Positions 29,415 to 36,097 of a DNA stretch of 64,000 nt are shown here, piece by piece. Both the position numbers and the translations under genes were made by a program. The notes under the pieces were generated by a model that was not told the DNA's origin, searched no databases, and was given only the letters and a program-made list of their open reading frames with translations. Location of the stretch: the NCBI RefSeq assembly GCF_030034735.1, contig NZ_CP125370.1, forward strand, positions 5,689,001-5,753,000, written 5' to 3'. Position 1 is the first letter of the stretch. Every line of letters starts with the position of its first letter. The stretch is from Paenibacillus sp. RC334 (GTDB lineage: Bacteria > Bacillota > Bacilli > Paenibacillales > Paenibacillaceae).

Positions 29415-30041
29415 GTGATCACCTATATGAGATGCAATGACGTCAGCATGGAACACATTTTTCAAGCATTTTCGCTTGGGTTCTCGGATTATTCCATTCG
29501 CCTGACCACGGATCAGGACGATTTCGCAGCACGTTTTTTTGGTCCAGAGGGTAATAAACGGAATCACTCTTTCCTTGCCATGGATGAGGATCAACCGATC
29601 GGCTTAATTCTCGGCGGTGTCCGGCAGTTCGACGGGTACAAGACCATGCGTTGCGGCACGCTATGCATCGCTCCGGCTTATCGTGGTCAGGGGATTAGCA
29701 ACAAGTTGCTGGAATTACATAAACAAACAGGCATCTCCGCGGACTGCCAGCAGCTATGGCTCGAAGTCATCAAGGATAATCATCGGGCAGTCAAATTATA
29801 TGAAAAGCAAGGCTACCAGGCACGCTATACGCTGAAATACTACAACGGCACTCTGCCCTCCACCCCAGCCGCTGCCCCCTCATCTTCGTATATTCTTAAG
29901 GAAGTTACATTTGATGACGTCGCAGCTTTTCGTAAGACCCTCACCGACTGTCACATCCATTGGCAAAGTGACACACCTTATTACGCCACCAGTACACAGG
30001 AAGCTTTTCTTGGCATCTACGAAGTGAATCAAACGTGCCTC
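29415..30041 (+). pseudogene. Two-domain GNAT acetyltransferase, 5' part, split by insertion
   Basis: GTG start at 29415 after AGGGGGG. Residues 1-145 form a complete GNAT domain with acetyl-CoA loop APAYRGQGISNKLL and EVIKDNHRAVKLYEKQGY. A second GNAT domain begins near residue 160 (YILKEVTFDDVAAF) but is cut at about residue 209, where the IS element starts; the ORF then runs 17 codons into IS sequence. The missing C-terminal half is found at 35830-36076. The first domain might still be translated as a truncated enzyme. Confidence 0.85.
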
Positions 30042-30117
30042 CTATTTAGCCCCTATTTGAACTTGGACAGTACACCCCTTACTCCGATACAATAATATTG
30101 AGGCGGAGGGGAACGAA

Positions 30118-30438
30118 ATGAAGAAGAAACAGTATGATCTAAATTTCAAGAAGATGGTGGTTGCCAAGGGGAAGGAAATCGGCAACATGACCGCTATATC
30201 AAGACAACATGAGCTTGATCCAAAGATGGTATTGCGATGGGCCAGAGAATTAAATCGTAAGGATCTAGATACACTGGATGGTTCTAGTATTAAGCAAGCG
30301 AAATTTGTACCGACTTCAGAAGATTATGCAGAGCTTGTGAAAGAGAATGAGAAACTTAAGAAGCTCTTTGCAGAGCAAGCCTTAGAGAGGGATATTCTCA
30401 AAGACCTACTAAAAAAACGAACCCGTACTTGCGGATAA
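30118..30438 (+). CDS. IS3-family transposase OrfA
   Basis: 106 residues, ATG at 30118 behind GGCGGAGGGG. The N-terminal helix-turn-helix (FKKMVVAKGKEIGNMTAISRQHELDPKMVLRWARE, seen as NMTAISRQHELDPKMVLRW) is followed by a leucine zipper (YAELVKENEKLKKLFAEQAL) used for dimerisation. It recognises the element's ends. The last codons overlap an A7 tract (30411-30417) just before the orfB frame, the probable site of frameshifting or slippage. Confidence 0.9.
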   Translation: MKKKQYDLNFKKMVVAKGKEIGNMTAISRQHELDPKMVLRWARELNRKDLDTLDGSSIKQAKFVPTSEDYAELVKENEKLKKLFAEQALERDILKDLLKKRTRTCG

Positions 30439-31372
30439 AATAGAAATCGCCCAGAAGTATATTACACGAGGGCATAGCATCAGCTTTGTACTGCGTGTGC
30501 TAGAGGTAGAACGCTCAACGTATTATGCATACGTGAATAGGCCAGAGCAAGCCCAAGAAACAATCCACAGGGCCGGTCGCCCTGCACCTGGTTTATCTTA
30601 TACACAAGATGGTGAGCCAATCAGTGATGAGCAGATTTGTGAATGGATCATGGAGTTCTTAGCAGGCGAAGGCGCGAACTACGGCTATCGTAAACTGACC
30701 GTGCTTTTAAGCCGCCGCCATCAACTGAAAATTAACAAGAAGAAAGTTTACCGTCTATGCAAGCGGATGGATGTGCTTCGTCCACAGCGGAAACTCAAGA
30801 TTAAGCATCCCAAGCGACTTGCCAACAATCGCGTCATAACGGCCTCTAATCAACTGTGGGAGACTGACATTAAGTATGGATGGGTCCAAGGCGAGCAACG
30901 GTTCTTCTTCCTAATGAGCATCTTAGATGTGTTTGATCGCGCCGTAGTTACTTATCACATTGGATTGACGTGCGAAGCGAAGCATCTCGTTCAGATCATG
31001 CAGGAAGCACTGATGAAACGTCAGCTCTTTGACAAGGCAGAAAAGCCCGTCATTCGTTCGGACAATGGTCCGCAATTTATTAGCAACCTGTTTGAGGAAG
31101 CTTGTAACGAGTTTGTCATGATTCACGAGCGCATCCCGCCAAAAACGCCGAATAAAAACGCGCATATCGAATCGTATCATTCGATCATAGAGGCGGAGTG
31201 CTATCAGCGGCATGAGTTTGAAACATATCCACAGGCCTATGAAGTCGTAAGTCAGTTTATACAAGATTATAATCGTATCCGCATCCACGGCAGCATTTAC
31301 GATTTGTCCCCGTATGAATATATGGAAGCGGTGAAACAAGGCACTGTGAAGCCAAAGCAGATTAAGGTTTAA
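30413..31372 (+). CDS. IS3-family transposase OrfB (DDE integrase core)
   Basis: The frame is open from 30413; the first usable start codon in it is around 30497. An HTH_21 region is followed by the rve integrase core with the catalytic triad: D in WETDIKYGW, D in RSDNGPQF and E in NAHIESYHSIIEAE. It is normally made as an OrfAB fusion. Here orfB lies +1 relative to orfA, not the usual -1; loss of one A from the A7 tract in the transcript would fuse them. It catalyses cut-and-copy transposition. Confidence 0.9.
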   Translation, partial: KNEPVLADKIEIAQKYITRGHSISFVLRVLEVERSTYYAYVNRPEQAQETIHRAGRPAPGLSYTQDGEPISDEQICEWIMEFLAGEGANYGYRKLTVLLSRRHQLKINKKKVYRLCKRMDVLRPQRKLKIKHPKRLANNRVITASNQLWETDIKYGWVQGEQRFFFLMSILDVFDRAVVTYHIGLTCEAKHLVQIMQEALMKRQLFDKAEKPVIRSDNGPQFISNLFEEACNEFVMIHERIPPKTPNKNAHIESYHSIIEAECYQRHEFETYPQAYEVVSQFIQDYNRIRIHGSIYDLSPYEYMEAVKQGTVKPKQIKV

Positions 31373-31409
31373 TCTTAAGCCGCTATAAGTAAAGAAAGGA
31401 GCAACACGC

Positions 31410-31568
31410 ATGAACGAGTACAGCCAACAACTACAAGACGGAATCGACGAGATGGAAGCAACCATCGAACGTCTGCGTGAAGAGATTCAACACCTTAAAG
31501 AGCAACGCGATGCCCTAGAGAAGGGCAATTTAGAACTTTATCGAAATCTAACCGAGCCTGACTTTTGA
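31410..31568 (+). CDS. Third small ORF of the IS: 52-residue coiled-coil protein
   Basis: ATG at 31410 with AAAGGAG about ten bases upstream. The peptide is almost wholly a heptad coiled coil (MEATIERLREEIQHLKEQRD) and ends EPDF. It lies inside the element, after orfB and before the right terminal repeat. Standard IS3 elements have no such gene. It could oligomerise with the OrfA leucine zipper and regulate transposition; no such function is shown. The second IS copy has lost it. Confidence 0.7.
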   Translation: MNEYSQQLQDGIDEMEATIERLREEIQHLKEQRDALEKGNLELYRNLTEPDF

Positions 31569-31674
31569 TTGCGGGTCTCCCCCGAAGTGTGGAGAAGAAC
31601 GTCAATTCGGGCGAAAAACAAAGCAAATTAACGAAATTCTACATCTGATATCGAATAAGAGGTGTATTGTCCTG

Positions 31675-31887
31675 TCCAGCCTGTCCATAGCGATGGCGAA
31701 ACCAGGAGGGGCCACAATTGTCGCGAAGTCCGATTTCTGAGTTTCTCTGCCGCGCGGTGATTCGGCTGTGACCGTCTTCCGTCTTTCCCCATCTCTCCTT
31801 AGGCATGTCCGAGTCATCCTGAGCGAGAGCCTTTATAAACGGCCAGCTCGCTGAGATGATAGCGATTCCCATCACCAGGCCACGCAT
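31675..31887 (-). pseudogene. Small exported protein, 3' end cut by the IS
   Basis: ATG at 31887 with AGGAG six bases upstream. The N-terminus MRGLVMGIAIISASWPFIKA followed by LAQDDSD looks like a signal peptide and early mature sequence; the frame then enters the IS terminal repeat, where the last 12 codons are IS-derived (stop at 31639). GC-rich like the DNA to its right. Family not recognised. Confidence 0.5.
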
Positions 31888-32297
31888 CATTTTCTCCTGA
31901 AGTCGGCAGGGCACAAATGCTGGCGCGAGCTATCTATGCAGAATCGGAGCGCTCTCGCTTGCTGTACGTTAGGTGAGGCTCCGTCACAACGCAATCCCGC
32001 GCCTTGTGTCGCGCGCGCCAATGTCCCGTCCGGGTCCGACAGCGGCTATGGGCGGGCTTCGCAAGTTTCCGACAGAAATGTAATCCAGTGTAACTGTTAC
32101 GCAACAGTTTAGCCTAGGCGACATGCTGAGCCGACTTTCGCCCCCGATGTGAAGGCGAGCTTCCGGTGTCGGCCAGGAGCGGCCAATCGATCGAGTGCGG
32201 TAATGACCTTCGAGTGTCGGCTCCAGTCAGCTTTCCGCCGTCTGGTTCGAATCCCCGGGGCTTCCCTGGTAGGAAAGTATGCGTCGGCAAATCTGAT
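31888..32297. other. GC-rich noncoding or decayed stretch
   Basis: No ORF with a credible start or family. It contains an inverted pair GTAACTGTTACGCAACAGTT around 32090-32110 that may be a promoter-region operator. Composition matches the GC-rich cargo, not the host chromosome. Confidence 0.4.
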
Positions 32298-32876
32298 TCA
32301 ACACGTTGCCTTCTTGACACCGTTGCTAGGCCGATTTATCAGGATGGCGCTCGTAATAACGTGAAAGAGATGATCCCCCCGTGGCGCGAATCCGGGCTGG
32401 CCGACGAGCCAGCCGAGCGCCGACATCAGGGCGAACAGGTCGACCCCATCCATATCGGCGCGCGCAGTTCCCTCGGCCTGAGCGCGGAGCAGTAGTCGCG
32501 CGCCCGCTGACCGCACCGCTGAGCTTGAAGCGTGAAGCGCGGAGTCCGGGTCCGCGTGGGCGCTCGCCAACAAGGCGCAAACGCCGCTATAGCTATGAAC
32601 GAATGCCACCCCTTCGCGAAACCAGGACACCAGCGCTTCGTCAGGTGGATTCGACGTTTCGAGTTCGGCTGCCTGCTGCATCAGTGCGTCCACATTCATA
32701 CGCAGCAACGCTTCGAACAAGGCTTCTCGCGTCGGGAAATGGCGAAGCAGTGTGGCCAACCCGACGTCGGCCCGGCGGGCGATATCTCGCATGGACGCGT
32801 CGGCACCATGCTCGGTGACGACGTCACGCGCGACTGCAAGTAGATGGCTGTAATTTTTTCTGGCGTCGGCTCGCAT
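32298..32876 (-). CDS. TetR-family regulator (GC-rich cargo)
   Basis: 192 residues from the ATG at 32876. The start MRADARKNYSHLLAVARDVV is the canonical N-terminus of this TetR subfamily, followed by the HTH (MRDIARRADVGLATLLRHFPTREALFEALL) and a ligand-binding half. It is the natural repressor candidate for the SDR gene at 33463, whose promoter has TetR-type palindromes. The same frame is open further upstream and joins an XRE domain (see the fusion ORF). GC-rich codon usage unlike the flanking chromosome. Confidence 0.85.
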   Translation of the reverse strand: MRADARKNYSHLLAVARDVVTEHGADASMRDIARRADVGLATLLRHFPTREALFEALLRMNVDALMQQAAELETSNPPDEALVSWFREGVAFVHSYSGVCALLASAHADPDSALHASSSAVRSAGARLLLRAQAEGTARADMDGVDLFALMSALGWLVGQPGFAPRGDHLFHVITSAILINRPSNGVKKATC

Positions 32877-33197
32877 AAATCGCCTTGACAATGGCTGCTC
32901 GGTAATCTCGCCCAGTGGGCCGGCTTCGCCCGTGACAGCGCTCGCTCGGAAATATTTTCTAGAATCTGAGTACTGGCCGCTGTATTCTTCGTTAATGCGA
33001 CCTAATAAAAAGTCTATAGAAACCCCAAAAAGAGTGGCAATCTTATCGATCGTTTCCTTCCTTGGTGTTCTGCCTTTTTTGTCAGACTCGTATCCAGCTA
33101 TGGTAGATCTAGATATTTTCAATCGTTCTGCAGCTTGCTCCTGCGTCCATCCTCGCTCTTCACGAAGCATTTTAAATCTCTCGGCGAATGTAGCCAC
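32298..33197 (-). CDS. In-frame XRE-TetR fusion ORF
   Basis: 299 codons from a GTG at 33197 behind AGGGGTG. Residues 1-65 are an XRE helix-turn-helix (FKMLREERGWTQEQAAERLK) of AT-rich, Firmicutes-like DNA. Residues about 85-107 are translated from an inverted scrap of the SDR gene (TGEAGPLGEI, also seen in the SDR). From residue 108 the whole TetR protein follows. Two DNA-binding domains of different origin would therefore be joined. Whether the long form, the TetR alone, or both are made cannot be told from sequence. Confidence 0.7.
   Translation of the reverse strand: MATFAERFKMLREERGWTQEQAAERLKISRSTIAGYESDKKGRTPRKETIDKIATLFGVSIDFLLGRINEEYSGQYSDSRKYFRASAVTGEAGPLGEITEQPLSRRFMRADARKNYSHLLAVARDVVTEHGADASMRDIARRADVGLATLLRHFPTREALFEALLRMNVDALMQQAAELETSNPPDEALVSWFREGVAFVHSYSGVCALLASAHADPDSALHASSSAVRSAGARLLLRAQAEGTARADMDGVDLFALMSALGWLVGQPGFAPRGDHLFHVITSAILINRPSNGVKKATC
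32887..32942 (-). repeat. Inverted duplicate of part of the SDR gene
   Basis: About 55 bases matching SDR positions 33718-33772 in opposite orientation, with two or three mismatches. It forms the linker of the XRE-TetR fusion. Confidence 0.8.
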
Positions 33198-33229
33198 CTA
33201 AATCACCCCTATTAATATATTACATTATA

Positions 33230-33250
33230 AATGTTCCTTTTGGAAACATT
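33230..33250. promoter_or_regulatory. Candidate XRE operator 1
   Basis: Near-perfect 21-bp palindrome with arms AATGTTCC / GGAAACATT, 33 bases upstream of the XRE start and next to TATAAT on the minus strand; probably autoregulatory. Confidence 0.55.
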
Positions 33251-33268
33251 CTATCAAATATTATTGCT

Positions 33269-33288
33269 AATGTTCCGAAAGGGAACTA
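33269..33288. promoter_or_regulatory. Candidate XRE operator 2
   Basis: AATGTTCCGAAAGGGAACTA, sharing the TGTTCC / GGAAC arms with the site at 33230 and lying 39 bp away. Confidence 0.5.
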
Positions 33289-33296
33289 TAATCAAA

Positions 33297-33329
33297 TTGG
33301 ATGTAATTTTTTATGGCGTAGTCTCGCAT
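33297..33329 (-). pseudogene. 5' relic of a second TetR gene copy
   Basis: The bases up to the ATG at 33329 read MRDYAIKNY, matching the first codons of the TetR gene at 32876 with few changes, and are preceded by the same CATTGTCAAGGCGATTT. This marks the original TetR-SDR divergent junction; the gene is cut off by AT-rich DNA after about ten codons. Confidence 0.65.
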
Positions 33330-33337
33330 AAATCGCC

Positions 33338-33393
33338 TTGACAATGGATCACTGATCCATATATGATGAACCTGTATCTGAATCAGTGATCCA
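33338..33393 (+). promoter_or_regulatory. SDR promoter with TetR-type operators
   Basis: TTGACA (33338-33343) and TATGAT (33362-33367) are separated by 18 bp. The spacer contains the perfect palindrome TGGATCACTGATCCA (33345-33359), and a second partial copy ATCAGTGATCCA lies at 33382-33393 just past the expected start of transcription. This is a standard arrangement for repression by a divergent TetR protein. Confidence 0.75.
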
Positions 33394-33462
33394 CAAGATA
33401 CAGCACATTTGTGCAAATGGGAACCGAGACACTGTCGGACATCACGAAAGGGGAAAGAAGTC

Positions 33463-34197
33463 ATGGGAAAACTTGAAGGTAAGGTTGCAGTCATCACGGG
33501 TGGATCGAGCGGCATGGCGCTGGCGAGCGCCATGCGGTTCGTTGAAGAAGGCGCCTATGTTTTCATCACGGGCCGGAGGCAGGAGGCGCTCGACGAGGCC
33601 GTCAAGCTGATTGGCCGGAACGTGACCGGCGTGCGCGGCGACTCGGCCAATCTCGACGACCTCGACCGCCTGTTCGATACAGTAAAGCGGGAAAAGGGCA
33701 AGATCGATGTCCTATTCGCGAGCGCTGGCACGGGCGAAGCCGGCCCACTGGGCGAGATTAGCGAGCAGCACTTCGATGCGACCTTCGGCCTGAATACGCG
33801 CGGAACGCTGTTTGCGGTCCAGAAGGCGTTGCCGCTGTTCAACGATGGCGGATCGATCATCATGACCGGGTCAGTTACTTCGGTGAAAGGTTTTCCTGGT
33901 TTCGGCGTGTATGCGGCGAGCAAGGCGGCGTTGCGCTCATTCGCACGCACTTGGCTCAACGAACTGAAGGGCAGGAATATCCGGGTGAACGTGCTGAGCC
34001 CGGGGCCGATCGCCACACCGATGCAGGACCAAGCTATCGACGAGGAGACGAAGCGGATGTTCGAATCCCTGATCCCGCGGGGAAAGATGGGCCGTCCTGA
34101 GGAAATTGCGACGGCCGCGCTGTTTCTTGCTTCAGACGATTCGAGCTTCGTGAATGGGGTGGATTTGTCTGTCGACGGCGGCTTATCAGCCATCTGA
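33463..34197 (+). CDS. SDR-family oxidoreductase (GC-rich cargo)
   Basis: 244 residues from the ATG at 33463 behind GAAAGGGGAAAG. Classical SDR with N111, S137, Y150 and K154 (GVYAASKAALRSF) and C-terminal VNGVDLSVDGGLSAI. The cofactor motif is altered: T12-G-G-S-S-G17-M-A19, where A19 replaces the third glycine of TGxxxGxG. It is likely an NADP-dependent ketoreductase. GC-rich with proteobacterial codon use; acquired with the TetR and the F420-reductase-like genes. Confidence 0.92.
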   Translation: MGKLEGKVAVITGGSSGMALASAMRFVEEGAYVFITGRRQEALDEAVKLIGRNVTGVRGDSANLDDLDRLFDTVKREKGKIDVLFASAGTGEAGPLGEISEQHFDATFGLNTRGTLFAVQKALPLFNDGGSIIMTGSVTSVKGFPGFGVYAASKAALRSFARTWLNELKGRNIRVNVLSPGPIATPMQDQAIDEETKRMFESLIPRGKMGRPEEIATAALFLASDDSSFVNGVDLSVDGGLSAI

Positions 34198-34418
34198 GAT
34201 CACGCCGAAAAGCGTGTGGGGGGTCTGTCAACTTGACGAAGATGATCCGAGTTGTGTCGATAAGTATGGAATCCTGATTAATAAGCGGGATTTATTTCGG
34301 TGATTGTCCAGCGGGTATTGTCTCGCGTGGCGCATCGCGGGCAACGGTCCCTCACGCCCGGTTACCAATTAACATGGGTCCGTGGTTGATCAAAACGTCC
34401 CCTGAATGGAGAGTTAAC
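34198..34418. other. Intergenic region in the GC-rich cargo
   Basis: No gene. Contains mixed composition and no clear terminator or promoter; the next gene has its own ribosome binding site. Confidence 0.4.
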
Positions 34419-35015
34419 ATGAGCTATTCGATTATTGGCTTTGGCGCGGTAGGCCAAGCACTCGCCCGAGCATTTGCAAGAAAGAACATCGATGTGACCG
34501 TCGCCAGCCGGCGCCCTCCCGTGACGTTGATACAGCAGGCACGAGCGATCGGCCCCACCGTTGTCCCTAGGACGCTGCAGGATGCAATCGCGTCCGACAC
34601 GATCTTCCTGGCGATTCCGTTTTGGGAACATCGCGAAGTCGCGAAGCAGATCACAACCTGGCAGGGCAAGACGATCATCGACGCGACAAATACAAATGCT
34701 CCCGTTGAAGACCTGGATGGTCAGCCGTCGTCCGCAGTTGTCGCCAAAGCGTTTACCGGCGCCAGGTTCGTAAAGGGCTTTAACCATCTGCCCGCTGCCG
34801 TTCTGGCCGCTGATCCGAGCGTGAATGGCGGCAGCCGCGTCGTGTTTTTGTCAAGCGACGACGAAAATGCGGTGGCGCCGGTCGCGGTTCTGGCCGAACA
34901 ACTCGGTTTCGCGCCGATTGCGCTAGGACCGCTCAAGGATGGCGGCTCGCTCGTCCAGGCCAGGGGCAATACCTGGGCTGAACTGATCTTCCAGGATCTC
35001 GTCAAGTTCAAATAG
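34419..35015 (+). CDS. NADPH-dependent F420 reductase-like / NAD(P)-binding protein
   Basis: 198 residues from the ATG at 34419 behind GGAGAG. The Rossmann motif is IIGFGAVGQALARAFA, followed by TVASRRPP (NADPH phosphate binding), FLAIPFWEHREVAKQ, IIDATNTNAP and a C-terminal LGFAPIALGPLKDGGSLVQA. This is the COG2085 fold shared by F420H2:NADP oxidoreductase and proteobacterial homologues that lack F420; here the partner is unknown. Likely cotransported with the SDR. Confidence 0.88.
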   Translation: MSYSIIGFGAVGQALARAFARKNIDVTVASRRPPVTLIQQARAIGPTVVPRTLQDAIASDTIFLAIPFWEHREVAKQITTWQGKTIIDATNTNAPVEDLDGQPSSAVVAKAFTGARFVKGFNHLPAAVLAADPSVNGGSRVVFLSSDDENAVAPVAVLAEQLGFAPIALGPLKDGGSLVQARGNTWAELIFQDLVKFK

Positions 35016-35319
35016 CGGCGCGTAACAACAAAGTCACAGCCGCCACGCGCATAGCCAAACGCGTGCTGGTGATCTGACCGAGATTCAGTTAGTGCTTCTG
35101 CGCGGGTGCATCATGGCCGCTAGACTCGCCGGATACCACTCGAAATATGTATCATGTAATAATGCTTAACGATTGTTCGTTCAACATGAAGGACTATTCA
35201 ATGACAATAGGTGCATAAAAAGGCGTGCCATTAAGCCAATGTCATTAAGTATGGCGCAAGGCTAAAAATCAAGAAAAAGAGCAGGTTATCGAAAAGATAG
35301 CCCGCTCTTTTTTTGGTGT
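35016..35319. other. Transition from GC-rich cargo to AT-rich DNA
   Basis: GC-rich until about 35140, then AT-rich host-like sequence. No gene is supported. A terminator lies at 35275-35314. Confidence 0.4.
35275..35314 (+). terminator. Terminator before the second IS copy
   Basis: AAAAGAGC / GCTCTTTTTTT arms with inner GGTTATC / GATAGCC pairing and a long T-run. Confidence 0.75.
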
Positions 35320-35819
35320 CTATTTAGCCCCTATTTGAACTTGGACAGTACACCCCTTACTCCGATACAATAATATTGAGGCGGAGGGGAACGAAATGAA
35401 GAAGAAACAGTATGATCTAAATTTCAAGAAGATGATGGTTGCCAAGGGGAAGGAAATCGGCAACATGACCGCTATAGCAAGACAACATGAGCTTGATCCA
35501 AAGATGGTATTGCGATGGGCCAGAGAATTTAATCTTGAGTTTCCGCTGTGGACGAAGCACATCCATCCGCTTGCATAGACGGTAAACTTTCTTCTTGTTA
35601 ATTTTCAGTTGATGGCGGCGGCTTAAAAGCACGGTCAGTTTACGATAGCCGTAGTTCGCGCCTTCGCCTGCTAAGAACTCCATGATCCATTCACAAATCT
35701 GCTCATCACTGATTGGCTCACCATCTTGTGTATAAGATAAACCAGGTGCAGGGCGGCGAGAAACAAAGCAAATTAACGAAATTCTACATCTGATATCGAA
35801 TAAGAGGTGTATTGTCCTG
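35320..35819. mobile_element. Second, rearranged copy of the IS3-family element
   Basis: 35320-35530 matches 30042-30252 of the first copy (two or three substitutions) and includes the orfA start at 35396. From about 35534 to 35757 the sequence is the reverse complement of orfB positions about 30581-30806. 35758-35819 is the IS right end in normal orientation. The element has therefore lost most of orfA and orfB and carries an inverted internal segment. It cannot encode a transposase but retains both ends, so it could be moved in trans. Confidence 0.85.
35396..35578 (+). pseudogene. Truncated OrfA of the rearranged IS copy
   Basis: The first 44 codons match OrfA of the full copy; from codon 45 the frame reads antisense orfB sequence and stops. 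The helix-turn-helix is intact, the leucine zipper is lost. Confidence 0.8.
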
Positions 35820-36076
35820 AATTAGGGTGTTTAACCGCCTCGGCATGGTGAGCATGAGTGCTCAGGGTAAAATCAACTTTCTTTGGGTCCGATCCTAAGC
35901 ATCGCAACCAAGGATTAGGATGCACCCTCCTTCATAGAGCAGCAGAGATCCAAAAGATTGAGAAGGTGTACATTTGTCTGTCCGACAATGACTCTCTTGA
36001 AGGCTTTATCCAAAAAATAGGTCTCTCGAAAGACCCCATTGAGCAATATGAAATGTGTATGCCGCTTCAACGATAA
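35820..36076 (+). pseudogene. GNAT acetyltransferase, 3' part, frameshifted
   Basis: Continuation of the gene split at 30041. The first segment reads VFNRLGMVSMSAQGKINFLW in one frame (about 35827-35891); the next reads DPKHRNQGLGCTLLHRAAEI in another and ends EQYEMCMPLQR at 36076. Removing one C near 35890 (GGGTCCGAT) joins them into a normal second GNAT domain with its acetyl-CoA loop. So the gene is inactivated twice, by the insertion and by a +1 frameshift. Confidence 0.8.
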
Positions 36077-36097
36077 TGGTTCACCACATTTAAATCA

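Follow-up and report, generated by a model that had tools for sequence, protein, structure and literature searches.

It has long been asked how a gene that has moved between phyla comes to be properly regulated in its recipient. The question is raised anew by a locus of Paenibacillus sp. RC334 at which an XRE domain, a linker and a complete TetR protein (residues 108-299) follow one another in a single frame of 299 codons. The locus lies within a stretch of 64,000 nucleotides (contig NZ_CP125370.1, positions 5,689,001 to 5,753,000), referred to here as the window; its features are collected in Table 1.

Table 1. Features of the fusion locus and its mobile unit (window positions; family assignments by Pfam or family search).
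Feature	Position	Strand	Remarks
Transposed unit	30041-35838		3-bp target duplications CTC at 30038-30040 and 35839-35841
Transposase: orfA with HTH_Tnp_1 (slightly under cutoff), orfB with rve and HTH_21	30118-31372	+	Pfam
XRE-TetR fusion ORF	32298-33197	-	GTG start, 299 codons plus stop, frame open
Complete TetR	32298-32876	-	residues 108-299; own ATG at 32876
Linker	32877-32948	-	residues 84-107; SDR-derived scrap (32894-32945), then the 18 nt that natively precede TetR
ImmR/cI-type XRE DNA-binding domain	32949-33197	-	residues 1-83; HTH_3 at 9-64
Shine-Dalgarno-like AGGGGTGA	33203-33210	-	ahead of XRE GTG; identical in four copies
TATAAT, presumed -10 of XRE-TetR promoter	33224-33229	-	identical in four copies
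XRE operator 1 (predicted)	33233-33247		GTTCC-N5-GGAAC type, one mismatch; motif scan
Promoter-like TTGCTA-17-TATAAT, reading towards SDR	33264-33292	+	XRE operator 2 in spacer
XRE operator 2 (predicted)	33272-33286		GTTCC-N5-GGAAC, exact; motif scan
Relic of native TetR 5' end, decaying	33298-33347	-	direct repeat of 32845-32894
Native SDR promoter-like TTGACA-18-TATGAT	33338-33367	+	promoter scan
Presumed TetR operator 1 TGGATCACTGATCCA	33345-33359		palindrome; in spacer of TTGACA-18-TATGAT
Presumed TetR operator 2 TGAATCAGTGATCCA	33379-33393		palindrome; just downstream of TTGACA-18-TATGAT
SDR oxidoreductase	33463-34197	+	start as in relatives' MGKLEGK; family search
F420_oxidored-type NAD(P)-binding protein	34419-35015	+	family search

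Three Pfam domains were found in the open frame, all above cutoff, namely HTH_3 (residues 9-64, E 2e-16, 60 bits versus a cutoff of 23), TetR_N (residues 119-164, E 3e-12, 46 bits) and the SbtR-like TetR_C_43 (residues 185-281, E 3e-18, 67 bits), which bears out the sequence-only reading of an XRE helix-turn-helix joined in frame to a TetR protein with its own start at 32876 in an ORF of 299 residues. This start agrees with the length of 191-192 aa and the MRADARK start of many relatives (sequences were fetched for five TetR relatives, four of them picked for an upstream extension). The best Foldseek matches of the TetR part were 2rek, 2q24 and 2qwt; the structure model, resting on a 22-row alignment, is poor outside TetR, with pLDDT below 50 for most of the XRE part and the linker. 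The proposed contrast between an AT-rich XRE and a GC-rich TetR holds as well, as the GC content in 200-nt windows is 32-48 % over the XRE domain and its control region versus about 57-69 % over TetR and SDR.

The join contains, again as had been proposed, an inverted scrap of the neighbouring SDR gene: 52 nt at 32894-32945 match 33718-33769 with 96 % identity, and on the fusion strand the scrap keeps the SDR reading frame (RASAVTGEAGPLGEITEQ versus FASAGTGEAGPLGEISEQ). The scrap and the SDR gene are consistent with descent from a common ancestral sequence, since every difference between them is confined to a single copy in a single lineage. In addition, a 50-nt direct repeat (92 %) links 32845-32894 with 33298-33347, which shows that TetR has two 5' ends, one belonging to the fused gene and the other left as a relic next to the SDR promoter. 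The sequence-only reading did not include this repeat, nor the transposon nature of the locus, other genomes with the fusion, the TetR operators in the shared 160-nt control region, or the parallel rearrangement of a second cassette.

The likely state before the rearrangement can be read from six Paraburkholderia/Caballeronia loci (L011-L015, L017), in which TetR, gap and SDR are contiguous (87-94 % nucleotide identity; 92-94 % for TetR) and the 52-nt piece occurs once, inside SDR. Since the TetR-SDR region is uninterrupted in all six, 32894-33297 represents an insert relative to the donor type. In a quick DNA tree of TetR (61 rows, with 26 of 57 inner branches open), the three fused TetRs group beside eight Paraburkholderia/Caballeronia rows (82 %), and a 14-row set with 95 % holds them; a further TetR resident in Paenibacillaceae forms a separate clade (nine rows, 100 %), which points to two transfers. 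The contig of L022, labelled Capsulimonas (an Armatimonadota MAG), carries two TetR copies of the family, which fall in different parts of the tree, along with TetR-type palindromes. Like the Paraburkholderia TetR/SDR cassettes (TetR_C_43, SbtR-like), the fused cassette has a complete TetR and similar palindromes ahead of the SDR and F420-reductase-like genes; in those compared, however, TetR is divergent and lies beside its operators, whereas the TetR of the fusion sits behind another HTH and is separated from its operators by the insert. The uninterrupted cassettes, the TetR tree and the Firmicute-type matches of the XRE head (see below) together uphold the earlier claim of recombination between parts of different origin, and the origin of the fusion, as reconstructed from these comparisons, is well supported.

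The XRE head is of the ImmR/cI type, and its better matches come from Firmicutes, including phages and plasmids of this phylum. The best PDB match of residues 4-67 is 7t8i, the DNA-binding domain of ImmR from ICEBs1 (E 6e-9), which together with the HTH_3 score identifies a Cro/cI helix-turn-helix. Among the phage and plasmid matches listed, the best (identity up to 49 %) are to repressors from elements of Brevibacillus, Paenibacillus and Clostridioides, and one of these repressors adjoins an ImmA/IrrE-type protease; at the DNA level, no match was found in the phages searched. In a 392-genome sample of the order, the closest relatives found (L107-L110) are 59-63 % identical, and no donor emerged within the same genus, where the best match outside the fusion reaches 45 % (E up to 1e-12). 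Similarity to the close relatives stops at residue 68-73 (at 70-73 for L107-L109), residues 74-83 have no assigned source and the SDR-derived linker begins at 84, while L107-L109 reach 124-136 aa from the aligned start (L107 124 aa, L109 132 aa). According to PMC8960796, ImmR comprises 127 aa; residues 1-63 form its DNA-binding domain, the C-terminal part is compared with the dimerisation helices of SinR, and ImmA cuts the protein at F95-M96. The head of the fusion thus resembles ImmR and other cI-XRE repressors in its five-helix XRE DNA-binding domain and the paired palindromes of its control region, but differs from ImmR, which keeps its C-terminal half in the account given there, in that this oligomerisation region is absent and TetR stands in its place. 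No ImmA-like ORF was noticed by eye among the ORFs of the cassette.

Palindromic XRE operators had been noted earlier, and two such sites are indeed present in the head's own control region, as would be expected of a repressor; besides those at 33233 and 33272, the 64 kb of the window hold three more GTTCC-N5-GGAAC sites, each with one mismatch. The motif (up to one mismatch) also lies about 140 nt or less upstream of the XRE match in three of the four close relatives (L107, L109, L110), at a chance count of at most 0.12 per locus in single-base shuffles, although it had been refined after inspection of L107 and L109; L108 carries two one-mismatch sites far from XRE, and none of nine more distant XRE loci has the motif. 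Across the four known copies of the fusion there is no change in the start of XRE, its ribosome site, the TATAAT or either operator. A promoter scan did not pick the XRE TATAAT, for which there is no good -35. The hexamers of the promoter-like site around XRE operator 2 are altered in two other genomes (G061 and G145), and this site is therefore weak evidence for XRE control of SDR. On the TetR side, a palindrome near YGGATCANTGATCCR occurs at least once in 17 of 17 scanned sequences (up to two mismatches, no shuffle control), and the TetR-type palindromes, where aligned, fall in the TetR-SDR gap. By comparison with the donor type, the XRE block is what split TetR from its native promoter and operators. 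As the native promoter region and operators now lie beyond the insert, and the XRE start, -10 and operators are the same between genera, the suggestion of a new promoter for TetR is supported.

Of 394 family genomes, three were found to contain the fused block, namely the window genome, a second species of the genus (G061, the only one of 74 other genomes of the genus) and a member of a second genus (G145); it is absent from G060, which belongs to the same species. A second copy of 30041-35838 is situated at 3.89 Mb of the same single-contig genome and differs by eight mismatches, none of them inside the fusion, and the ORF is open over 299 codons in all four copies. That the region might be an assembly chimera had been named as the outcome that would overturn the reading. 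The join is unusual and sits in repeated DNA, but nothing else was found in favour of an artefact, and the identical joins recur in the second own copy, which has other flanks, and in G061 and G145, each of which bears substitutions of its own. With four copies spread over three separate genomes, an artefact is ruled out, and we give it practically no chance.

Searches beyond the family returned no further example. In a protein search, which scored the 7997 candidates sharing the most words, the 120 listed of 2754 matches were all TetR proteins of 186-227 aa without HTH_3. Residues 1-100 gave no match among proteins of fusion length, a weak result in that shared 5-mers are needed and the own protein was missed too. 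Among 54 loci of a species-genome collection none was listed with both parts (six short peptide patterns, so near kin may be missing), and in a 398-genome sample of the phylum, scored for at most five candidates per genome, only the window's own genome spans residues 1-299 among the matches listed. No natural XRE-TetR fusion was found in the open-access literature, among the matches listed; such architectures are nevertheless possible elsewhere.

In the window genome, the fusion travels on an IS-bounded 5.8-kb unit, both copies of which have their own 3-bp target duplication (CTC in the window, TAG at the second site). The flanks of the unit lie side by side in G060 as well as in G062 and G063 (eight genomes were searched, the other five without a flank match; the letters were read for G060 and G063). 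An rve transposase, which by its domain make-up we take to be of the IS3 family, a short target duplication and copies with other flanks characterise an IS3-type composite transposon, albeit without two intact flanking IS copies: the right one is a rearranged remnant (35320-35838) that consists of the first 220 nt in direct orientation, an inverted inner piece of 227 nt (35529-35755, identical to 30578-30804) and then the right end. The unit interrupts a gene that is GNAT-like by eye, with pieces at 29415-30040 and 35839-36090; compared with G060, the right piece is longer by one base. Position 33533 distinguishes the two copies of this genome: SDR codon 24 encodes M in the window, whereas the second copy, like G061, has K. 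In G145, the cassette match covers 32280-35315, and the 18 kb fetched contain nothing that matches the IS of the window; an ORF resembling a group II intron reverse transcriptase (by eye) is located close to it (L098:5168-6547).

A parallel rearrangement is seen in the resident cassette, whose TetR in the window genome is 83 % identical at the protein level to the fused TetR, and which apparently was transferred separately from the fused cassette, to judge by the tree. In all eight resident loci examined (L010, L039, L077-L079, L099-L101), a shortened relic of the TetR 5' end remains on the SDR-operator side, while the intact TetR gene is found at another place in the locus. In all five inspected (L010, L077, L099-L101), the intact TetR follows a leader, presumably of host origin, with a ribosome-site-like GGTGAAAACAT before its start and no protein fusion. 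As the resident cassette appears to derive from another transfer, TetR would have been parted from its native site at least twice. G062, of the same genus, and Paenibacillus terrae (L039) have identical resident TetRs. In two loci (L099:5832-5923, L100:7635-7717), the relocated resident TetR is followed directly at its 3' end by a piece resembling the SDR 5' region, a hint that this TetR may stem from a second copy of the cassette.

Comparison of the window with G145 gives a first measure of constraint. Changed sites number 2 of 249 in XRE, 2 of 90 in its control region, 4 of 72 in the linker and 12 of 579 in TetR, next to 16 of 735 in SDR, 14 of 597 in F420, 11 of 57 in the relic and 14 of 90 in the SDR promoter region. 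XRE thus differs clearly from the relic (P 2e-7), though its lower rate compared with TetR lacks significance (P 0.25). The relic (33288-33344) has diverged by 19 % in this pair versus about 3-4 % at synonymous sites of neighbouring genes, and is an imperfect neutral yardstick because it is faster than these; in G061 it has an 8-nt deletion. No indel separates the two genomes in the fusion ORF (900 nt), SDR or F420, compared with six in 681 nt of non-coding neighbours, a count that leaves out 31675-32297, where just 62 of 623 sites align. At this non-coding rate, 7.9 indels would be expected in the fusion ORF and none is observed (P 4e-4), whereas for XRE and linker alone the expectation of 2.8 against none is not significant (P 0.06). 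The frame test of the window against G061 gives P 0.03 for the whole ORF and P 0.29 for XRE and linker, and is not independent of the first, as both use the window.

Among the three genomes, XRE has one amino-acid change (S31P, a residue also present in the relatives L107 and L108) and the linker changes at two codons, while the nine changed TetR codons all lie in 166-299 and none in 108-165, the HTH region (P 0.04, with the boundary set after the changes were seen). The dN/dS ratios of the TetR part between fused copies are 0.60, 0.93 and 1.74, based on few changes, versus 0.16-0.19 in three close Paraburkholderia/Caballeronia pairs and 0.47 for L013-L017; they are also raised in SDR (0.34-0.44) and F420 (0.28-0.68) of the fused copies, all calculated on trimmed genes without the SDR rows L017, L079, L021 and L022 and the F420 rows L028 and L022, in which the start motif is missing. 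Constraint on the cassette may accordingly be weak, and the effector domain of TetR may be relaxed or adapting.

The comparisons show the following course of events. A Paraburkholderia-type TetR/SDR/F420-reductase-like cassette entered Paenibacillaceae, and one rearrangement, common to all known copies, set a Firmicute ImmR/cI-type N-terminal DNA-binding domain with its divergent control region upstream of TetR. The join runs through an inverted copy of 52 nt from the SDR gene, with the TetR 5' relic left at the native site, and the fused gene later moved on the IS-bounded unit, as is evident for the window genome. Transcription from the XRE promoter may then yield the 299-aa protein, although the internal TetR start is possibly used too. 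TetR family proteins are dimers, and the TetR dimer may replace the missing C-terminal half of XRE; the ImmR DNA-binding domain alone is, however, dimeric in the crystal according to PMC8960796, and TetR therefore need not dimerise the XRE head. The fusion would repress its own promoter via the GTTCC-N5-GGAAC sites and could still bind the TetR operators before SDR, and if it reads both operator sets, a ligand of TetR would govern the two heads together with the SDR operon.

A natural chimeric repressor of this kind, with autoregulation through the XRE operators, dimerisation through TetR and retained binding to the TetR operators before SDR, is the reading towards which we lean, with slight rather than strong confidence. 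The principal rival holds that only a promoter and leader were captured, so that the working product is TetR from the ATG at 32876 (AAGGCGATTTATG) and the XRE head a passenger leader peptide. The TetR start and the preceding AAGG are unchanged in all four copies, and in the resident cassette, apparently a separate transfer, TetR lies unfused behind a new leader with GGTGAAAACAT (five inspected of eight, with the relic in eight of eight); yet few parts of the unit are as well conserved between genera as the coding sequence, start site and operators of XRE, and a mere leader should drift like the relic. We hence consider leader capture improbable, though deserving of attention. More unlikely still is a hitch-hiking by-product of the transposon with no regulatory role, in which TetR is decaying and the resident TetR serves both loci. 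The near-unity dN/dS of TetR among fused copies speaks for it, as does the presence of the resident locus in all three fusion genomes, with similar operators in the two scanned (L010, L077); a frame of 900 nt free of indels and stops in two genera, next to flanking non-coding sequence that has indels, and two DNA-binding domains nearly without amino-acid change speak against it. That both DNA-binding domains, the TetR operators and the control region of XRE are conserved would best fit a two-headed, autoregulated repressor.

Laboratory chimeras with a DNA-binding head on a dimerising partner are familiar from lambda cI-DBD dimerisation fusions. Like the engineered chimeras of DNA-binding and ligand domains described in PMC6079105, the fusion places a foreign DNA-binding head on a ligand-binding or dimerising partner; it differs from those described there in being natural, residing on a mobile element and having a second partner that retains its own DNA-binding domain.

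Such a two-headed repressor might even be ligand-controlled and built across phyla, with a phage/ICE-type XRE head and a proteobacterial TetR dimer in a single chain; it could bridge or loop the two operator sets, which lie within about 160 bp of one control region, and so connect an autoregulatory switch of phage type with the oxidoreductase operon, along with a repeated route from a native promoter to a control region of the new host; in this full form the proposal is tentative and, on the whole, rather doubtful. For the question of how transferred genes come under control in a new host, both the before and the after are readable here, as uninterrupted donor-type cassettes on the one hand and, on the other, a fusion with promoter, operators and N terminus swapped that has been kept in two genera. 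The route of relocation may be general, because a second cassette of apparently separate origin has a displaced TetR in eight of eight loci, and the fusion protein, if made, would be a natural counterpart of laboratory repressor chimeras.
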